Source: Pseudoalteromonas piscicida | GTDB taxonomy: Bacteria; Pseudomonadota; Gammaproteobacteria; Enterobacterales; Alteromonadaceae | DNA: 64,000 nucleotides | Direction: 5' to 3' | Assembly (NCBI RefSeq): GCF_002208135.1 | Contig: NZ_CP021647.1 | Coordinates: 871,501-935,500 of the forward strand | Shown: positions 5,583 through 13,400 of the stretch, one piece after another | Layout: the number at the start of each line of letters is the position of its first letter | Position numbering within the stretch: position 1 is the stretch's first letter | The notes under the pieces: generated by a model | Seen by the model: only the letters and a program-made list of their open reading frames with translations | The model's database searches: none | Told to the model about the DNA's origin: nothing | Position numbers and translations under genes: made by a program

Positions 5583-5984
5583 ATGATTAAAAGGATAATA
5601 AGTGGTTTTTGGTTACTTATGTTGGCTGTCAATACACAGGCAGCTGAAGAAGCGTTAACGATTGATAGTGTAGTGCCTAACAGTATTGAGCTGGCTTTTC
5701 CTAATGATGCCAATATTTACCCAGATATCAGTGACTTCAAAGTACTTAACGCGGTGTTGATGAGTAATGAAAGCGGTGAGCGCTGGGCAATGATCACGAT
5801 TAAAAACCAATCGAGTGGCCGCCGTACGTTAACACAAAAACATCTGTTGGCACTAACGGCGAACGGTCAAAGGATCGCGCCGATGAAGCTTTCTGAAAGT
5901 TTTGATGGCGGTGAAACGCTTTCCCTCACATTGGCTTTCGGTGAGAATAAGTTTCCGTTGCTTAACGTGTATACGCGTAATTAA
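5583..5984 (+). CDS. Small secreted protein of unknown function
   Basis: 133 residues. An N-terminal signal peptide (KRIISGFWLLMLAVNTQA, cleavage probably after residue ~20) predicts export to the periplasm. The mature part is about 110 residues, predicted mostly beta, with no recognised motif and no cysteines. It stands alone between the terminator at 5451-5494 and the convergent DUF2063 gene. I do not recognise the family; orthologues would probably be in related marine gammaproteobacteria. Confidence 0.75.
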   Translation: MIKRIISGFWLLMLAVNTQAAEEALTIDSVVPNSIELAFPNDANIYPDISDFKVLNAVLMSNESGERWAMITIKNQSSGRRTLTQKHLLALTANGQRIAPMKLSESFDGGETLSLTLAFGENKFPLLNVYTRN

Positions 5985-6009
5985 TCTAACATTCGACCCA
6001 AAAGAACAC

Positions 6010-6873
6010 TTATGCTTTCTGTAACGTAAACAGCCCCCTGTTAATCGCGCTTGGCAGCCAAACTGCTAACTGCGATCTCAATACTTGAGTCTCCATATTC
6101 ATGCGCTTAGCACAGTAGGTTATTGCTTCTTGATAGCGTAGCGGCTTTTCTCTCAAATGAAGCAATAAATCTGCTTGCCAGTCATTTAAGACACTCATTT
6201 TGATGCGATATTGTTGGCGCGATATTGCAATATACGTTTGCTCAGGCGTTGGCAAGGTGTACGGCTTTGCTTGTTCAAGCTGGGTTATAAGCGGCAGCAA
6301 AGGGTAATCGGTTTGAATCAGTTGTACGGATTCTGGCACCGACATGACAAAGTTTTCTGCGACACCACAAAGGAGCTCAATCTCGTTTATTGCCGCGGTT
6401 GATTGCTGTGCTTCAGGCCCAGGCTTTAACAGTGCAAGCGCTTTGGCTCTTTCAAACTTAGCGAGCTCTGAAGGCAAACTAAACATCGTTTGCTGGTGGG
6501 CATTAAAATCGCCGGTAGGTTTAGTGTTTGCTAAAAAGTCAGCGAAGCGCGAGCCTAGTTGATGTAGTGTCCAAGACTCTGAGGGTAAGGTGACGATAAA
6601 GGCTTTGGCGAAGGTGTCGAATACTTCGTCGCCCATAAACTGGCAAAGTAATGCAAACTCTCCCCGAAGACATTCTACTAAACGCATCACATAGCCTGCA
6701 GCATAGATGTCTACTCTTCTCATGGCTCCGAGTGTTTTACTACTTTTTACACAGTCATGCAGCGTTAAACCATGGGGATTTGCAGCGGTATTGAGTTTTT
6801 GTGGTAGGTCGCCTCGTACCATTAAAACGGTGCTAAGCCACTGCTGAGTTTGCGTTAAGTCTGGCGTTTTCAT
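6010..6873 (-). CDS. DUF2063 (HvfC/BufC-type) partner protein
   Basis: 287 residues. The N-terminal ~100 residues match the DUF2063 'putative DNA-binding' domain: a pattern of 'RRVDIYAAGYVMRLVECLRGEFALLCQFMGDEVFDTFAKAF...P' is visible at ~50-100. The family almost always accompanies DUF692 enzymes and is thought to act as a precursor-recognition or docking partner (HvfC/BufC), not as a DNA-binding protein. Its ATG overlaps the DUF692 stop by one base (TAATG), so the two are translationally coupled. The C-terminal half is less conserved and resembles a winged-helix fold. Last gene of the three-gene operon. Confidence 0.88.
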   Translation of the reverse strand: MKTPDLTQTQQWLSTVLMVRGDLPQKLNTAANPHGLTLHDCVKSSKTLGAMRRVDIYAAGYVMRLVECLRGEFALLCQFMGDEVFDTFAKAFIVTLPSESWTLHQLGSRFADFLANTKPTGDFNAHQQTMFSLPSELAKFERAKALALLKPGPEAQQSTAAINEIELLCGVAENFVMSVPESVQLIQTDYPLLPLITQLEQAKPYTLPTPEQTYIAISRQQYRIKMSVLNDWQADLLLHLREKPLRYQEAITYCAKRMNMETQVLRSQLAVWLPSAINRGLFTLQKA

Positions 6874-7823
6874 TATGTTAATTCTGCTCGCTCTTTAACG
6901 ATTGGAGTTGACAGCGCGTTGGTGCTAGTAACTGTATCTTGCTTTGGAATATGCCCTGTCAGTACCAGTTTTGCTTTGCTTAACTCATCAACGAGTTCAG
7001 GAAAACTGGGGATATTGGCATCCCATTCAAGTAGGGTAGACACGCCACCCGTTAACTGCTGCGCCAGTTGGTAAAGTTGCCAAACTTTGGCGGGCACCGG
7101 TTGGTCATGGGTGTCTATCAAACAATCACCGCAGTCGCTAGGACCGGCTAGATGTATTTGAACGATGTGTTTATGGGGGAGTTGGCGAATAAATGCCTCG
7201 GCGTCAAAACCATGGTTAAAGCTACTGACAAAAACATTGTTTACATCCAACAGCATACCGCAGCCTGTTGCGGTGACTAATTCACTAAAGAACTCGCTTT
7301 CGGTGAGAGTTGAATGTTGAAACTCAAGATAAGTTGAAGGATTCTCAAGCACTAAAGGCCGTTCTAAAAAATCCTGCACTTGATCAACACGGTTGATAAC
7401 GTGCTGTAGGCTTTCGTCGGTTAACGGCATAGGTAGGAGATCGTGACTATTCAAACCAGCAACGCCTGTCCAACACAAATGATCAGAAATAAGCTGTGGT
7501 TTAACGAATTCACTTAACTCCTTGAGCTTGCCTAAGTATTCAAAGTTAAGTGGGTCACTGCTACCAATATTCATTGACACACCATGCATCACTAGCGGGT
7601 ATTGTTCCTTTAACTGAGCGAGCATATGCCGGCCATATCCGTGATTATCTATATAGTTTTCACTGATGATTTCAAACCAGTCGACACCAAGTGATGTACC
7701 GCGCTCTAAATGGGACATAATAAAGGGATAGTGCTGGCTTCTTAGGCCAATACCAAACCCCAAGTCGGTTAGTTTTTCGATAGCGGACGCAGCAAGCTGC
7801 TGCGTCCGAATTGGATTTGTCAT
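6873..7823 (-). CDS. DUF692 multinuclear non-heme iron oxidative enzyme (MNIO)
   Basis: 316 residues, a TIM-barrel-like DUF692 protein. Characteristic segments are 'GIGLRSQHYPFI', 'DWFEIISENYIDNHG', 'VMHGVSMNIGSSDPLN', 'PQLISDHLCWTG', 'LENPSTYLEF', 'GMLLDVNNVFVSSFNHGFD', 'HIVQIHLAGPSDCGDCLIDTHDQPVP' and 'LLEWDANIPSFPEL', which contain the His/Asp/Glu metal ligands of the MNIO family (MbnB, TglH, BufB, HvfB). Known members use two or three irons to modify cysteines (or other residues) in a peptide with help of a partner protein. AGGAAAG precedes the ATG. It lies 13 bases after the ferritin-like gene and overlaps the DUF2063 gene, so its substrate is probably the upstream gene product. Confidence 0.93.
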   Translation of the reverse strand: MTNPIRTQQLAASAIEKLTDLGFGIGLRSQHYPFIMSHLERGTSLGVDWFEIISENYIDNHGYGRHMLAQLKEQYPLVMHGVSMNIGSSDPLNFEYLGKLKELSEFVKPQLISDHLCWTGVAGLNSHDLLPMPLTDESLQHVINRVDQVQDFLERPLVLENPSTYLEFQHSTLTESEFFSELVTATGCGMLLDVNNVFVSSFNHGFDAEAFIRQLPHKHIVQIHLAGPSDCGDCLIDTHDQPVPAKVWQLYQLAQQLTGGVSTLLEWDANIPSFPELVDELSKAKLVLTGHIPKQDTVTSTNALSTPIVKERAELT

Positions 7824-7836
7824 GCTATCTTTCCTA

Positions 7837-10155
7837 TCAAGTTGATGGAGGAAGAGCTAGACGAATATCTGAAGGTTTTGGCTTCTCTTTAGGTTTGCCT
7901 TCTTCGTTCAATAAACCATTGGCGTTGCAGTATGCTTGCCAAGCAATATTGTATACGGCATCTCCTGTTTCATAAGGCATGAGCACGTGATCTGTAGGTT
8001 CGTCTGTTTGAACTTCTTGATCTTTCGGATAAGTGTAATCAATAGCAGAGAAGCTGTTATCTTTAAGATTAAACTTAAATAATTGCATAAAGCATTTTTT
8101 GTCTTCACCGGAAAGTTTTGGGAAGAGTTGAGAGGCTGAGATAGGCACTGCACACCCACCCAAGTTATTACACTTATTATCAGCAGGGGCACTCTTTGGC
8201 CCTGTTGATACACTACCACCACAGCTACCACCTGGCGTTGTACTATGAACAAAACCACAGCCACCTTGTGCTTTACAGTCGTTACTACCCTTACAGCTGT
8301 GATAGACCTCAGGAGGTGGTAAGTCATCCGAGCCGATGTTGGTATAGCTCATTCCTTGGCAGGCATGATAAAGGGTGTTCGGATTTTGTGGGGCGATACC
8401 CGTTACTAAATCTGGCGCAATTCCCGTAGTTGCCCAGCAAATCGAGATCCTATCGCCAGAGCCACCCATTGCAGGGCCCGGAAATTCAGTGGTTTTACCT
8501 GACCAGTAACGATCAAGTGCTGAAGTTAGACCTTTAATTGTGCCTACTGCAGATTGACTAAATAGCTTGTTTGTTTCCTGCGTTTTTTTGTCTGTTTCCC
8601 TAAGATTATTGAGTGCGTGCACTACGCTATCCACTGGTGGAAGTTGTGGGTGACGTCCGTGTGCTTCATCACCGCCGTTGGGATCCAATAATGCCTCAGT
8701 CCAACTATTACCCTCAGCAAACCAAGTTGGCCAAGTCAGGTAGCGTTCTTTATGAGCCGTTGTTGGTTTTTCATAACTAACAATGAGCTTCATCGTATCG
8801 GTGAAAATTTGAAAGTGGTCTTTATATTTGTTGGCTATTCGGGCACAGGCTGAACCGGATAACGGTTTGTCATCTGTGCTCGGATAGTCATGCTCTAAGG
8901 CAGGTTCATCTGGTTGAAAACGTGCATCTACAGTGCTCGGGTGAGCAGGCTTAGCCGCACTTTGTAATTTACCCAAGACACTTTGGGCCCAAGGCTCTTC
9001 TGCCCAGCGTAAACATATCATTTTTGCAACGCCGTCACCTTCACCTTGATCTGTGATTGCATTGACATTATTTATGAGTGCTTTTTTTAACAAATTATGT
9101 TCATTATATTTCTCAAGAGAACCTTTTATTTTAGGAAATTGGGCATCATATGAAGTATCACCGGGACGTTCATTAAAGTAGTTTCTTTGCGCTCTAGCAT
9201 CGTTTGCTTCAGCCTTTGAGAGCGCATAGTCTAGTAGACTCGTGTTATCATCGTATTCAATTTGAATATAGTCCCAATAACTCAAGTACATATGTCCAAT
9301 TGAGCCAAATAGTGGCAAATCACTTTCGGTGTAATCCGGTTTCCACCAGTCGTATGGGGCTTGTTCAAAATATTTTGGCTGTTTTGTTTTTGCGTCTGGC
9401 TCTAAAAACTGCGGCTGAATAATTTTTTTAGCGTTTTCTTCAGTCTCTTCTATTAGCATAAAGAGTAAAGTCTGTTCTTTATTTAGCTCTGTCGCATTAA
9501 CGCGCAGGTCTTGTAATGTTTTACCAGGAAAAATTTGTTCGAAATAAGCTTGAACTTCTGGGCTTAGCTTAGATAAGTCTGTAGTACAGTCTGCAAAGTC
9601 TAAAATATGTGGAATACCACTTTGATTGTTGTAGCACTTCCAACCAAATTTTTCGTCAATTAACGCCTGACTGGTAAAGCTCGGTGTGAGCCCTAGTTTA
9701 CTCGCCATATTTGAAGCGAGTTGCAGATGCAGCATCTCTTCAATAAATACGCTATAAACGCCGTTAAAAACCTGTTCATTGACATTAAGTTCAGAATTAC
9801 TAATACCAATAAACCTGTCTTTTAAATCGTTGTCGTAAGGAGACAGTCGTTCTGAAGGAATGTATCCCGCAGTCGGACCAAGCCCTGGCCAGTAACGGCC
9901 AGGATAGAGATTTGAAGAGTCCGCAATCTGGTGTGTGCCTTGAATTGAGTAGAGGCCGGTCATATAAAGTGGGATTGTGAATAACTCCACGTTAATCGCA
10001 GCTTGTGCAATTGCTTTCAGACAAGATAAATCAGCAGCCTTATACTCGCTACTGCGCGCTTTAATTTGTTGTTTTTGTGCACTGCTTAAGAGGATGTTGG
10101 CATCAATCTCTTTATCTACTTCTACCGATGGGCCTGTTTTGTTCTGCACATTCAT
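7837..10155 (-). CDS. Large ferritin-like (iminophenyl-pyruvate dimer synthase-type) protein with Cys-rich tail
   Basis: 772 residues, no signal peptide. Residues ~40-300 form a ferritin-like domain related to VioB-type iminophenyl-pyruvate dimer synthase, with carboxylate/His metal-ligand candidates Glu57 (NVELFTIPLY), Glu139-Glu140..His143 (FIEEMLHLQL) and 'MLIEETEEN' further on. The C-terminal third holds a cysteine pattern: Cys599 (ACQGMS), then Cys621-x5-Cys627-x5-Cys633 (SCKGSNDCKAQGGCG), Cys645, and Cys662-x5-Cys668 (KCNNLGGCAV). CKGxNxCKxxGGC-like motifs occur, as I recall, in short precursors next to DUF692/DUF2063 genes (bufferin-like RiPPs). First gene of the operon, with AAGGAG six bases before the ATG. 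Inference: it is the substrate or co-enzyme of the MNIO downstream. Violacein genes themselves are absent. Confidence 0.85.
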   Translation of the reverse strand: MNVQNKTGPSVEVDKEIDANILLSSAQKQQIKARSSEYKAADLSCLKAIAQAAINVELFTIPLYMTGLYSIQGTHQIADSSNLYPGRYWPGLGPTAGYIPSERLSPYDNDLKDRFIGISNSELNVNEQVFNGVYSVFIEEMLHLQLASNMASKLGLTPSFTSQALIDEKFGWKCYNNQSGIPHILDFADCTTDLSKLSPEVQAYFEQIFPGKTLQDLRVNATELNKEQTLLFMLIEETEENAKKIIQPQFLEPDAKTKQPKYFEQAPYDWWKPDYTESDLPLFGSIGHMYLSYWDYIQIEYDDNTSLLDYALSKAEANDARAQRNYFNERPGDTSYDAQFPKIKGSLEKYNEHNLLKKALINNVNAITDQGEGDGVAKMICLRWAEEPWAQSVLGKLQSAAKPAHPSTVDARFQPDEPALEHDYPSTDDKPLSGSACARIANKYKDHFQIFTDTMKLIVSYEKPTTAHKERYLTWPTWFAEGNSWTEALLDPNGGDEAHGRHPQLPPVDSVVHALNNLRETDKKTQETNKLFSQSAVGTIKGLTSALDRYWSGKTTEFPGPAMGGSGDRISICWATTGIAPDLVTGIAPQNPNTLYHACQGMSYTNIGSDDLPPPEVYHSCKGSNDCKAQGGCGFVHSTTPGGSCGGSVSTGPKSAPADNKCNNLGGCAVPISASQLFPKLSGEDKKCFMQLFKFNLKDNSFSAIDYTYPKDQEVQTDEPTDHVLMPYETGDAVYNIAWQAYCNANGLLNEEGKPKEKPKPSDIRLALPPST

Positions 10156-10390
10156 GGTTTGCTCCTTTGTGACGGTGAACGTTATGCAATACCACTGGCT
10201 TAAATAAAAATAAGTTAGGATTTAGGTTATTTATCCAAGGCAACTCAAAATTTAAGCAAGTTGATGTAGGTGAGCGATGAACACTCGTTATACAAAGTAG
10301 TCGTAAAAAGAGATAAGATCGATTACGAGATATTACATGCTGGTAACTTTTTTATAACCTATTTAAGGGGCACAAAGCGAATAAGCTGAA

Positions 10391-10433
10391 AGGATAAAAG
10401 AAGTGGTTTAAAGTCCAGAGCCTTAAACCACTT
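10391..10433 (-). terminator. Terminator of the tricorn-like protease gene
   Basis: On the minus strand a perfect 11-bp stem (AAGTGGTTTAA 10401-10411 with TTAAACCACTT 10423-10433) is followed by CTTTTATCC. It lies 20 bases beyond the stop codon of the S41 gene and before the promoter region of the ferritin-like operon. Confidence 0.85.
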
Positions 10434-10452
10434 TGAGGAGCTAGTTACGCGC

Positions 10453-13400
10453 TCAGAACTTAGATGGTGCAGGAGGCACAGTCAGTGTTTTCTTCGGGCT
10501 ATCTTTTAACTCTTGCAATAGCTCTTGCACCGCACGCTCGACTGAAGGATCTTTACCTGCATGAACAAGCTCAGGTCTATCGATCACTTCGATATCAGGG
10601 CTTACGCCTTCGTTCTCGATTATCCAATTACCATCGTTATCTAGAATTCGGAAGGTCGCTGCGATCACCTGACCACCGTCAACTAGACTCGGGTTACCTG
10701 AGATACCAATTAGACCACCCCAAGTGCGAGTACCAATCAGTTTGCCAAGACCCGCCTGACGGAAGTAGTAAGGTAGAGCATCACCACCGGAACTTGAATA
10801 ACCATTGATAAGCATGGCTTTTGGACCATCGTGTGCAAACGAAGGTGTTTTTGTTGGTTCAACACCACGGCGTTTCCAATAGTTAAGTGGCTTACGAGCA
10901 AGCCAAGTGATCATGTGCTCAGGGATAAAGCCGCCGCCGTTATAACGGTCGTCGATGATCAGCGCATCTTTGCTCGTTTGTGGCATAAAGTTCTTAAATA
11001 ATGAACGGTTACCATCATAATGAGTATTTGGCAGGTGAACATAGCCAATCTTACCGTTTGATAGTTTATCCACGTAGTCTGCGCGTGATTGAACCCATGC
11101 CATGTAACGTAAGCCTTGCTCGCTGGCGACAGGTTTTACCGTGGTTTTCCAGCTATCATCAGCGCTTGGTGATTTACTCAATACCAGCTCAACTTGCTCG
11201 CCTAGGGTGTTTTCAAGTAGCTCGTAAAAGTTAACCACGTCTTTTACCGAGCGGCCATTTACCGAGATGATGTAATCACCCGCATTGGCATTCACGCCAG
11301 TTTCATCGAGTGGTGAACGGTAGTCTTCATGCCAGTTCTCACCTTTGTAGATACGCTCAATTTTTACGTAGCCAGACTGATGAGCGCTTATTTCTGCGCC
11401 AAGTAAACCATGCTTTTTGCGCTCGGCTGTTGGGGCATCACCAGATTGTACGTAAATGTGACCTGCGTTGATTTCACCTGCAATTTCGCTAAGTACATAG
11501 TCTAAGTCGCTACGGTGTGCGACAGCGCTGGCAAGTGGTTGATACTTCTCCAAGATAGCATCCCAATCTTGACCGTGGTGATGCTCGTCGTAGAACCAGT
11601 CGCGTAAGGTACGCCAGCCTTCTACATACATTTGTTGCCACTCAACTTGCGGGTCGATTTTCAGTGTCATCTTAGATAAATCAAGCTGACTGGCTTTTAA
11701 ATCTTGCTTTGGCTTTGGTGCAATGACACTGAAGTTGTTACCAGCGCGAGCGATCAGGTGTTTACCGCCTGCGGCAACTTTATAGCTGCTTACGCCTTCG
11801 GCGACGGTTTCTAGTTTGCTATCTGGCTCGGTGCCGAGGAGCTTTAACGCACCGCCAGTTAAGGTCAGTACGCCGCCTTCAACACCTGTGAGTGAACTGT
11901 AGTTACCAGCTGGGGCTGAGAGTGATACAACCCGTGACATAAAGCCGTTGGCCTCAATGTGATTTTCTTGTTTGTCGCTGTCCTTTTTCGTTTCTTCGTC
12001 TGATTGAATGCTTAACTCATCACTTTCAAAGGCATTAAGCGGCTTGATCTGACTATTCACCGCAACGCTATAAATGCGCGTGGCATTATTAAACATATAA
12101 TCAAATTCATAGCTGCTAAAGGTAAGGTTATAGTCGCGCTCAGAAGTGAAATAAATGTAGTTACCGTCAGGAGAGAAAGTCGGGTTACGCTCACTGGTCA
12201 TGTTGTCAGTCAGTCGAGTGACCTTTTTATCCTCAGTGTTATAGTGCCAAAGCGAGGCGTAGCGGTTTTCATTGTTTTTAACAAAAACAATATCTTCACT
12301 GTTTGGCGACCAAGTATATTCAGTTAGACCATCTTCGTCGTATTTGGCGGTGTCAATTTTATGCATATCGCCAGATTTCGCATCAACCCACCATAGCGTG
12401 TGGTTTTTATCTGCGAAGAGTAGTTTGCTGTTATCAGCGGACCAAATTGGTGTAAAGCGCCAGATGGTACCATTGTCGGTTAACTGGATGGTTTTGTTGT
12501 TATTTGCTCTATCTTTGAGATAGATCTCATATTCACCTGTTTTATCGCTCATGTAGGCAATATAACGGCCATTCGGTGACCAGCTAGCTTCAATTTCACG
12601 GCCTTCTGGCGTGTAAGAAAGGTTGCGAGTTGGGCCCTGTTTTACTGGGACTGAGAATAACTCACCACGGGCAGTAAACAATGCACGCTTACCATCGTGT
12701 GATATATCCATAGAATCAATAAAGTCGCTAACGTTTTTACTATATGGCATGGCATATTGACGCACACCTGCTACATCGATTTGTAGCTTCTTAGCGGTCT
12801 TTGTCGCTTCCTCAAAGCGATATAAGTAACCGCCATTTTCGTAGACAATGGCATCTGGCCCAGCTGATGGCCAAAGCACGTCAAAGTCTTTGTGGTCAGT
12901 CATTTTTATCGGTGACTTACCATCGCGATATTTATAAAGGTTGAGCGTGTATTCACGGTCAGACACAAAGTAAATACTGTCATTCACCCAAGTTGGTTGT
13001 TGATCGGTGGCTTTGTCAGTGGTGAGTTGTTTGGACGTATTGTTTTTAAGGTCGTAAATCCAAACATCCTGTGCTCGACCACCACGGGAGCGCTTCCAGG
13101 TTCTAAACTCTCTGTCGATTGGCGTGTAAACATACTTGCTACCATCAGGGGAAAGCATACCACCGCCAGTTTCAGGGATAGCCATCGGCTGTTCAAGTCC
13201 ACCTTCTACCGGTACCATATATGGACGACCCATACGTTTACCCCATGGTGTGCGATTTGCTCTAAACACGATATGTTTACCGTCTGGTGTCCAGTCCATC
13301 ACTCGATAGTCGAACCCACCACGTGGTGGCATTTGCCCAACATCGTTGTAATAAGTGAGTTGCTTTAATCCCGAGCCGTCAGCATTGATCACATAGATTT

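Follow-up and report, generated by a model that had tools for sequence, protein, structure and literature searches.

The well-studied products of MNIO (DUF692) enzymes are metal-binding peptides or small proteins (PMC12452194, PMC13097082), and the bufferins, which carry copper-binding thiooxazoles, provide a precedent (PMC12452194). For such modification, published values are a loss of about 4 Da per modified cysteine site and absorbance near 305 nm (PMC13097082, PMC12452194). Bufferin-like domains can also sit on bigger proteins, and the main text of Antoine et al. 2025 (PMC12452194) presents fusions of Buf1 with Cytochrom_C and FGE-sulfatase, of MerC with Buf1, of MerC with Buf2 and of EGKCG with EF-hand. 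That main text includes no ferritin-like fusion, and the word 'ferritin' occurs in it 0 times. It associates DUF2063 partners with signal-peptide-bearing precursors, and it describes large TIGR04222 membrane proteins with a C-terminal unstructured cysteine segment, often encoded beside an MNIO. A DUF692 cluster for a ribosomally synthesized and post-translationally modified peptide (RiPP) in Pseudoalteromonas is mentioned in PMC10286705, without detail. A literature search by titles and the starts of abstracts, with most subscription papers and supplements outside its scope, gave no description of a ferritin-like protein paired with an MNIO. Here we describe such a pairing in a 64,000-nucleotide stretch of the two-contig genome of Pseudoalteromonas piscicida (C2:871501-935500, hereafter the window), where a minus-strand trio runs from a ferritin-like gene to an MNIO gene and then to that of a DUF2063 partner. 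The ferritin-like protein ends in a cysteine-rich, bufferin-like module and, as judged from sequence comparison, is well supported as the substrate of its MNIO.

The ferritin-like protein (7837..10155, 772 aa) matches PF12902 at 63.4 bits against a cut-off of 22.3. The MNIO (6873..7823, 316 aa) matches PF05114 at 347 bits (cut-off 25) and the NCBIfam model NF050167 (MNIO_BufB) at 344.6 bits (cut-off 310), and the partner (6010..6873, 287 aa) matches PF09836 at 55.5 bits (cut-off 27.2). For a PME-type 1 partner with an RRE-type domain, two further models match the protein more weakly, below their cut-offs (NGO1945_C, 20.3 versus 27 bits; HvfC, 42.6 versus 142 bits). Only 13 bp separate the ferritin-like and MNIO genes, while the MNIO and DUF2063 genes overlap by 1 bp, so the three packed genes reported in the first-pass annotation are confirmed by open reading frame (ORF) positions and Pfam scores. 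Its claim that the operon holds no second precursor candidate also stands: inspection by eye of positions 5900-10500 revealed no cysteine-rich, precursor-like frame besides the trio, the short ORFs there lying out of frame over the trio or in the flanks.

The cysteine module spans residues 599-668 (8152..8361, minus strand), as delimited by alignment, profile comparison and a predicted model. It holds C599, C621, C627, C633, C645, C662 and C668, a numbering that the first-pass annotation had given correctly for the last six. The core reads C621-KGSND-C627-KAQGG-C633, followed by C645 and by C662-NNLGG-C668, with C621 and C627 each forming a Cys-Lys pair like those of BufA2. Together with C573 and C599, these cysteines make eight that are invariant in 40/40 rows of our alignment A1, which comprises the window protein and 39 sequences chosen from the best 120 of 552 homologues (the window's own included). 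Among those best 120, the pattern CxGSNxCxxxGGC is kept in 119 and a longer pattern in 118. Within the genus the tail is more conserved than the folded part (mean identity 88.5% for residues 617-679 versus 68.3% for residues 22-600), although residues 619-671 have a predicted local distance difference test score (pLDDT) below 50 and are predicted to be unstructured. Conservation extends to the C-terminal RLALPPST (7840..7863, minus strand, from the alignment); the PPST end is present in all of the 120 listed window-type homologues and in 0/120 listed members of a second fused lineage introduced below, and is possibly a recognition signal. In three fused homologues (P0065, P0067 and P0085), long Gly/Cys-rich inserts separate the two halves of the tail.

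The tail can also be found outside this protein. One genome (G096, locus L063) encodes a diverged 742-aa ferritin-like frame with the same cysteine module, followed by an MNIO and a DUF2063 gene. A search with this protein gave 491 relatives, and the tail core is present in 118 of the 120 listed, the two exceptions being 492 and 524 aa long. A stricter spacing pattern fits only 44 of these 120, so cysteine spacing is variable in this lineage. The tail is thus neither a chance nor a single-clade feature, both of which are ruled out by its presence in 119/120 window-type homologues and of its core in 118/120 of the second lineage, and the fused architecture is widespread. Another genome (G976, L074) has a split cassette, in which a 459-aa PF12902 protein is followed by a 207-aa protein with 15 cysteines and then by an MNIO, the end of the contig hiding any DUF2063 gene. 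Next to the split cassette (L074, 3307-7394) are encoded a thiamine-diphosphate enzyme and a FAD/berberine-type oxidase in which a laminin-G domain is also present. The free 207-aa tail, used as a query, has 666 relatives; the 120 listed all retain the motif, and 0/120 of these listed stand-alone tails exceed a hydropathy of 2, a rough mark of signal peptides. The cysteine region of the stand-alone protein is also mostly at pLDDT below 50, in a low-confidence model.

Profile comparison links these forms. Window-type tails match the stand-alone family at E 2.8e-9, where 50 column-shuffled controls got no lower than 0.005, and L063-type tails at E 2.2e-12, and L063-type tails match the stand-alone family at E 4.9e-57. 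As controls, the tail compared with the ferritin part gave E 0.99, and the ferritin part compared with the stand-alone family gave E 0.3. The stand-alone tails in turn match 11 BufA2-like precursors from fetched loci at E 2.2e-7 (best of 50 shuffled controls, 0.011), and 29 of 32 members of the family match BufA2, and no other family, in NCBIfam (best E 3.5e-6). These comparisons indicate that the tail is a separable module, homologous to stand-alone cysteine proteins, and that the stand-alone family is probably a remote homologue of the bufferin BufA2.

The gene neighbourhood follows the tail in the loci examined. A 40-sequence profile was searched in overlapping whole-genome sets (phylum, 398; class, 369; order, 295; genus, 108), giving 22 full-length loci in Pseudoalteromonas, the window included, and one in each of four other genera (G256, G625, G637 and G878). 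In 26/26 of these, an MNIO gene and then a DUF2063 gene lie downstream on the same strand. The 108 genus genomes contain 72 PF12902 matches: 22 tail-bearing, 2 decayed (G437 and G467) and 48 tail-less, the last with frames of 373-397 aa (22), about 1010-1024 aa (19) or 341-354 aa (7). Neither an MNIO, searched by tblastn with four types, nor the tail core was present in the approximately 20 kb around any of the 48 tail-less genes (three regions were shorter, at contig ends). As a control, the MNIO queries without the window's own recovered the MNIO in 21/21 tail-bearing loci. The idea that any PF12902 gene attracts an MNIO is ruled out by this absence around the tail-less genes.

Weaker and more distant matches were also inspected. 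Among the weak profile matches are G096 and G976, with the tail arrangements described above. For two others, the fetched stretches of 7.7 kb (G026, L107) and 13.6 kb (G732, L075) contain neither the tail core nor an MNIO, and a weak tail-profile match (L146) has no MNIO within its 6 kb. On plasmids, tail-bearing loci were recorded only on two Pseudoalteromonas replicons; two other searches returned 36 and 134 records, with query coverage below 80% in every case, and a further one returned no record. Four plasmid regions (L150-L153) contain no MNIO, and tail-less relatives on plasmids belong to ebo clusters or have a tyrosinase gene nearby, likewise with no MNIO. Of the decayed loci, G437 has the start of the ferritin-like gene fused straight onto the end of the MNIO, and in G467 both genes are fragmented, with no tail core seen. 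Beside a decayed copy, locus L106 has an FAD-oxidase-like frame and a 732-aa protein, which we take to resemble LodA-type oxidases. In G398 and G414 one stop was counted at the match places, but both fetched loci hold intact 709-aa frames.

The MNIO itself carries a mark of this association. Nine residues (H80, H115, E160, D193, H224, D237, H239, E266 and D268) are conserved in no fewer than 46 of the 47 MNIOs aligned, and the His, Asp and Glu positions other than D268 are presumably metal ligands. In a tree of these 47 (leaving out L061, decayed; L132, the same place as L136; and L137, 100 bases), all 28 ferritin-associated enzymes, whether fused or split, fall on one branch with support 99/99. 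L062, L071 and L072 are counted among them, as each adjoins a ferritin-like gene. Just outside this branch, on a long branch of its own, is L149; Buf2-type enzymes are the neighbours, and seven EGKCG-type enzymes stand well apart. The active-site signature of the window MNIO is E266-W-D-A (7017..7028, minus strand, by motif match). Matched by motif, with FonB itself unaligned, D268 would correspond to FonB-Asp249 and A269 to FonB-Phe250, the former being the proposed catalytic base and the latter a site linked to substrate choice, occupied by Asp in Cys-Lys (BufA2) enzymes, according to PMC13097082. All 28 ferritin-associated MNIOs have EWD[A/G], and the other 19 have ERDF (7), ERDD (11) or ERDA (1). 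Eight of 16 fetched loci were examined further and yielded seven more signatures (ERDG, ERDF, EWDN, and two each of ERDA and ERDD). The EWDN enzyme (L167, in G411) is encoded next to a 96-aa Buf1-like precursor with 4 cysteines, and EWD alone was dropped as a clade marker for this reason. It is the EWD[A/G] combination, not the tryptophan alone, that marks the ferritin-associated clade in our sample. The P. piscicida genome contains three MNIO types, the other two being encoded in an operon with a Buf2-type precursor of 13 cysteines (C2:964326, L001) and in one with an EGKCG-repeat precursor (C1:2256455, L002).

The folded part of the protein, residues 27-584 (8404..10077, minus strand), is defined by the Pfam match (PF12902, residues 51-375), the predicted model and the alignment. 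Foldseek and VIA gave one clear relative, the crystal structure 3hl1 (CC_0557), which the model matches over 281 of its 289 residues. Six residues (E57, E140, H143, E236, E372 and H447) are invariant in all rows of A1 and are candidate metal ligands; C174, outside the tail region, is likewise Cys in 40/40. With E values allowed up to 1, NCBIfam offers nothing that matches the protein, neither BufA2 (NF050166) nor the equivalog for VioB, the iminophenyl-pyruvate dimer synthase (TIGR04492, cut-off 1250 bits). A PHROGs search gave no match. Its best 12-residue hydropathy value in the first 40 residues is 0.38, versus 2.08 for the Buf2 precursor of L001. By this rough test the window protein shows no Sec-like N-terminus, although fused homologues reach 2.38 (median 1.38), some opening directly with a ferritin helix.

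Compared with the described systems, the trio is most like BufA2/Buf2 (NF050166, NF050167). The two share the CxGxNxC start of the cysteine-rich module, an MNIO above the BufB cut-off, a DUF2063 protein and the order of precursor, MNIO and partner. They differ in that the window protein has no apparent Sec-like start and no BufA2 match, its module ends a 772-aa enzyme, and its MNIO has EWDA instead of ERDD. The precursors that Antoine et al. associate with DUF2063 have signal peptides, whereas none is apparent here. As described in the main text of PMC12452194, TIGR04222 proteins are membrane-bound, have a PME-type 2 partner or none and are not ferritin-like, unlike the window protein. The same study gathered signal-less cysteine proteins preceding MNIO genes with no size limit, and it is possible that window-type proteins sit unnamed in its data, overlapping with its unnamed clusters (e.g., adjamnio-I). 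The window protein also differs from other PF12902 ferritin-like proteins (CC_0557/3hl1, VioB-size and ebo-cluster proteins): neither the tail core nor an MNIO neighbour is present in the 48 tail-less genes of the genus or in three annotated plasmid cases.

We consider it probable that the MNIO and its DUF2063 partner act on the bufferin-like tail in the cytosol, and that the di-metal enzyme would thereby carry its own metal-binding arm. The two proteins would oxidise cysteines of the unfolded C-terminal module in the cytosol and, by analogy with bufferins, the likeliest product would be thiooxazole-type rings. The module would remain attached to the enzyme, as a metal-binding arm built after translation; attachment is expected because, in six loci inspected by eye, the trio has no other recurrent neighbour and because the C-terminus is conserved to its last residue. 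The metal bound by such an arm would most likely be a soft one, for instance copper, and the arm may shield the enzyme, or feed or withhold its metal. Some bacteria would make the arm as a protein of its own, from a gene adjoining that of a tail-less enzyme. The first-pass annotation had proposed the ferritin-like protein as the MNIO substrate, and comparison favours this, since tail and MNIO occur together in all full-length loci found and a free-standing, precursor-like tail gene lies beside an MNIO. Its suggestion that a folded enzyme is modified needs revision, the likely target being the unfolded module appended to that enzyme.

A different role for the ferritin-like domain can be envisaged, namely as a second tailoring enzyme (a di-iron oxygenase) whose RiPP substrate is the tail, fused or adjacent, the modified tail then being set free or passed on. 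The coexistence of fused and split forms is what would be expected of an enzyme and its substrate, and the FAD oxidase and thiamine-diphosphate enzyme genes adjoining the G976 cassette also fit. We nevertheless think this unlikely: no dedicated protease or exporter was apparent by eye in the six loci, in which no family search was made, and conservation reaches the final residue beyond the module, suggesting that the tail is retained. It is less likely still that the tail is an ordinary, unmodified zinc, iron-sulphur or disulphide element while the MNIO and DUF2063 proteins act elsewhere. Eight invariant cysteines are equally typical of structural metal sites, but this account fits poorly with the lack of an MNIO beside the tail-less PF12902 genes, with the single precursor candidate in the operon, with the free-standing module gene beside an MNIO in G976 and with a module predicted to be unfolded. 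An incidental position, with the MNIO serving the Buf2 or EGKCG precursors of the same genome in trans, seems very improbable; both precursors are indeed encoded there, but each adjoins its own MNIO, on another branch of the tree.

Several observations weigh against modification of the tail as a bufferin-like module. The 22 genus loci are relatives and not independent cases and, although no tail was found without a DUF692 neighbour among the loci examined, in line with the first-pass annotation, most listed homologues come without gene context. Window-type tails match BufA2-like precursors directly only at E 7e-4, the link running via the stand-alone family, in which two scores of 22.6 (L074) and 21.3 bits against BufA2 (NF050166) lie under the 60-bit cut-off. 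The G625 locus (L071, 8007-9974) lacks C627, replaced by His, and C645, yet retains the MNIO and DUF2063 genes; its protein ends in PPN instead of PPST. In the MNIO tree, long branches are flagged by the program (L149 joining the 28, and L062 with L071). The signature's tryptophan is not unique, given L167, and L163 and L164 have ERDA. Finally, because the specificity site is Ala or Gly, where Cys-Lys (BufA2) enzymes have Asp, the chemistry or choice of site may differ.

These proteins form a large family in which a ferritin-like enzyme is fused with a bufferin-like module. No signal peptide is apparent, yet the DUF2063 partner is of the type so far linked to signal-peptide precursors (PMC12452194). 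Its members can be recognized by the CxGSNxCxxxGGC tail together with the EWD[A/G] of the MNIO, and the trio allows a direct test of MNIO action on full-size enzymes. The pairing suggests that the machinery may decorate a whole enzyme and not only a small peptide. More tentatively, the thiooxazole or related group installed by the MNIO could provide a cytosolic di-metal enzyme with an integral cofactor for metal or redox chemistry, used in cis by fused forms and in trans by split ones. If so, a maturation machine for ribosomal peptides would have been co-opted to mature the cofactor of a folded protein.

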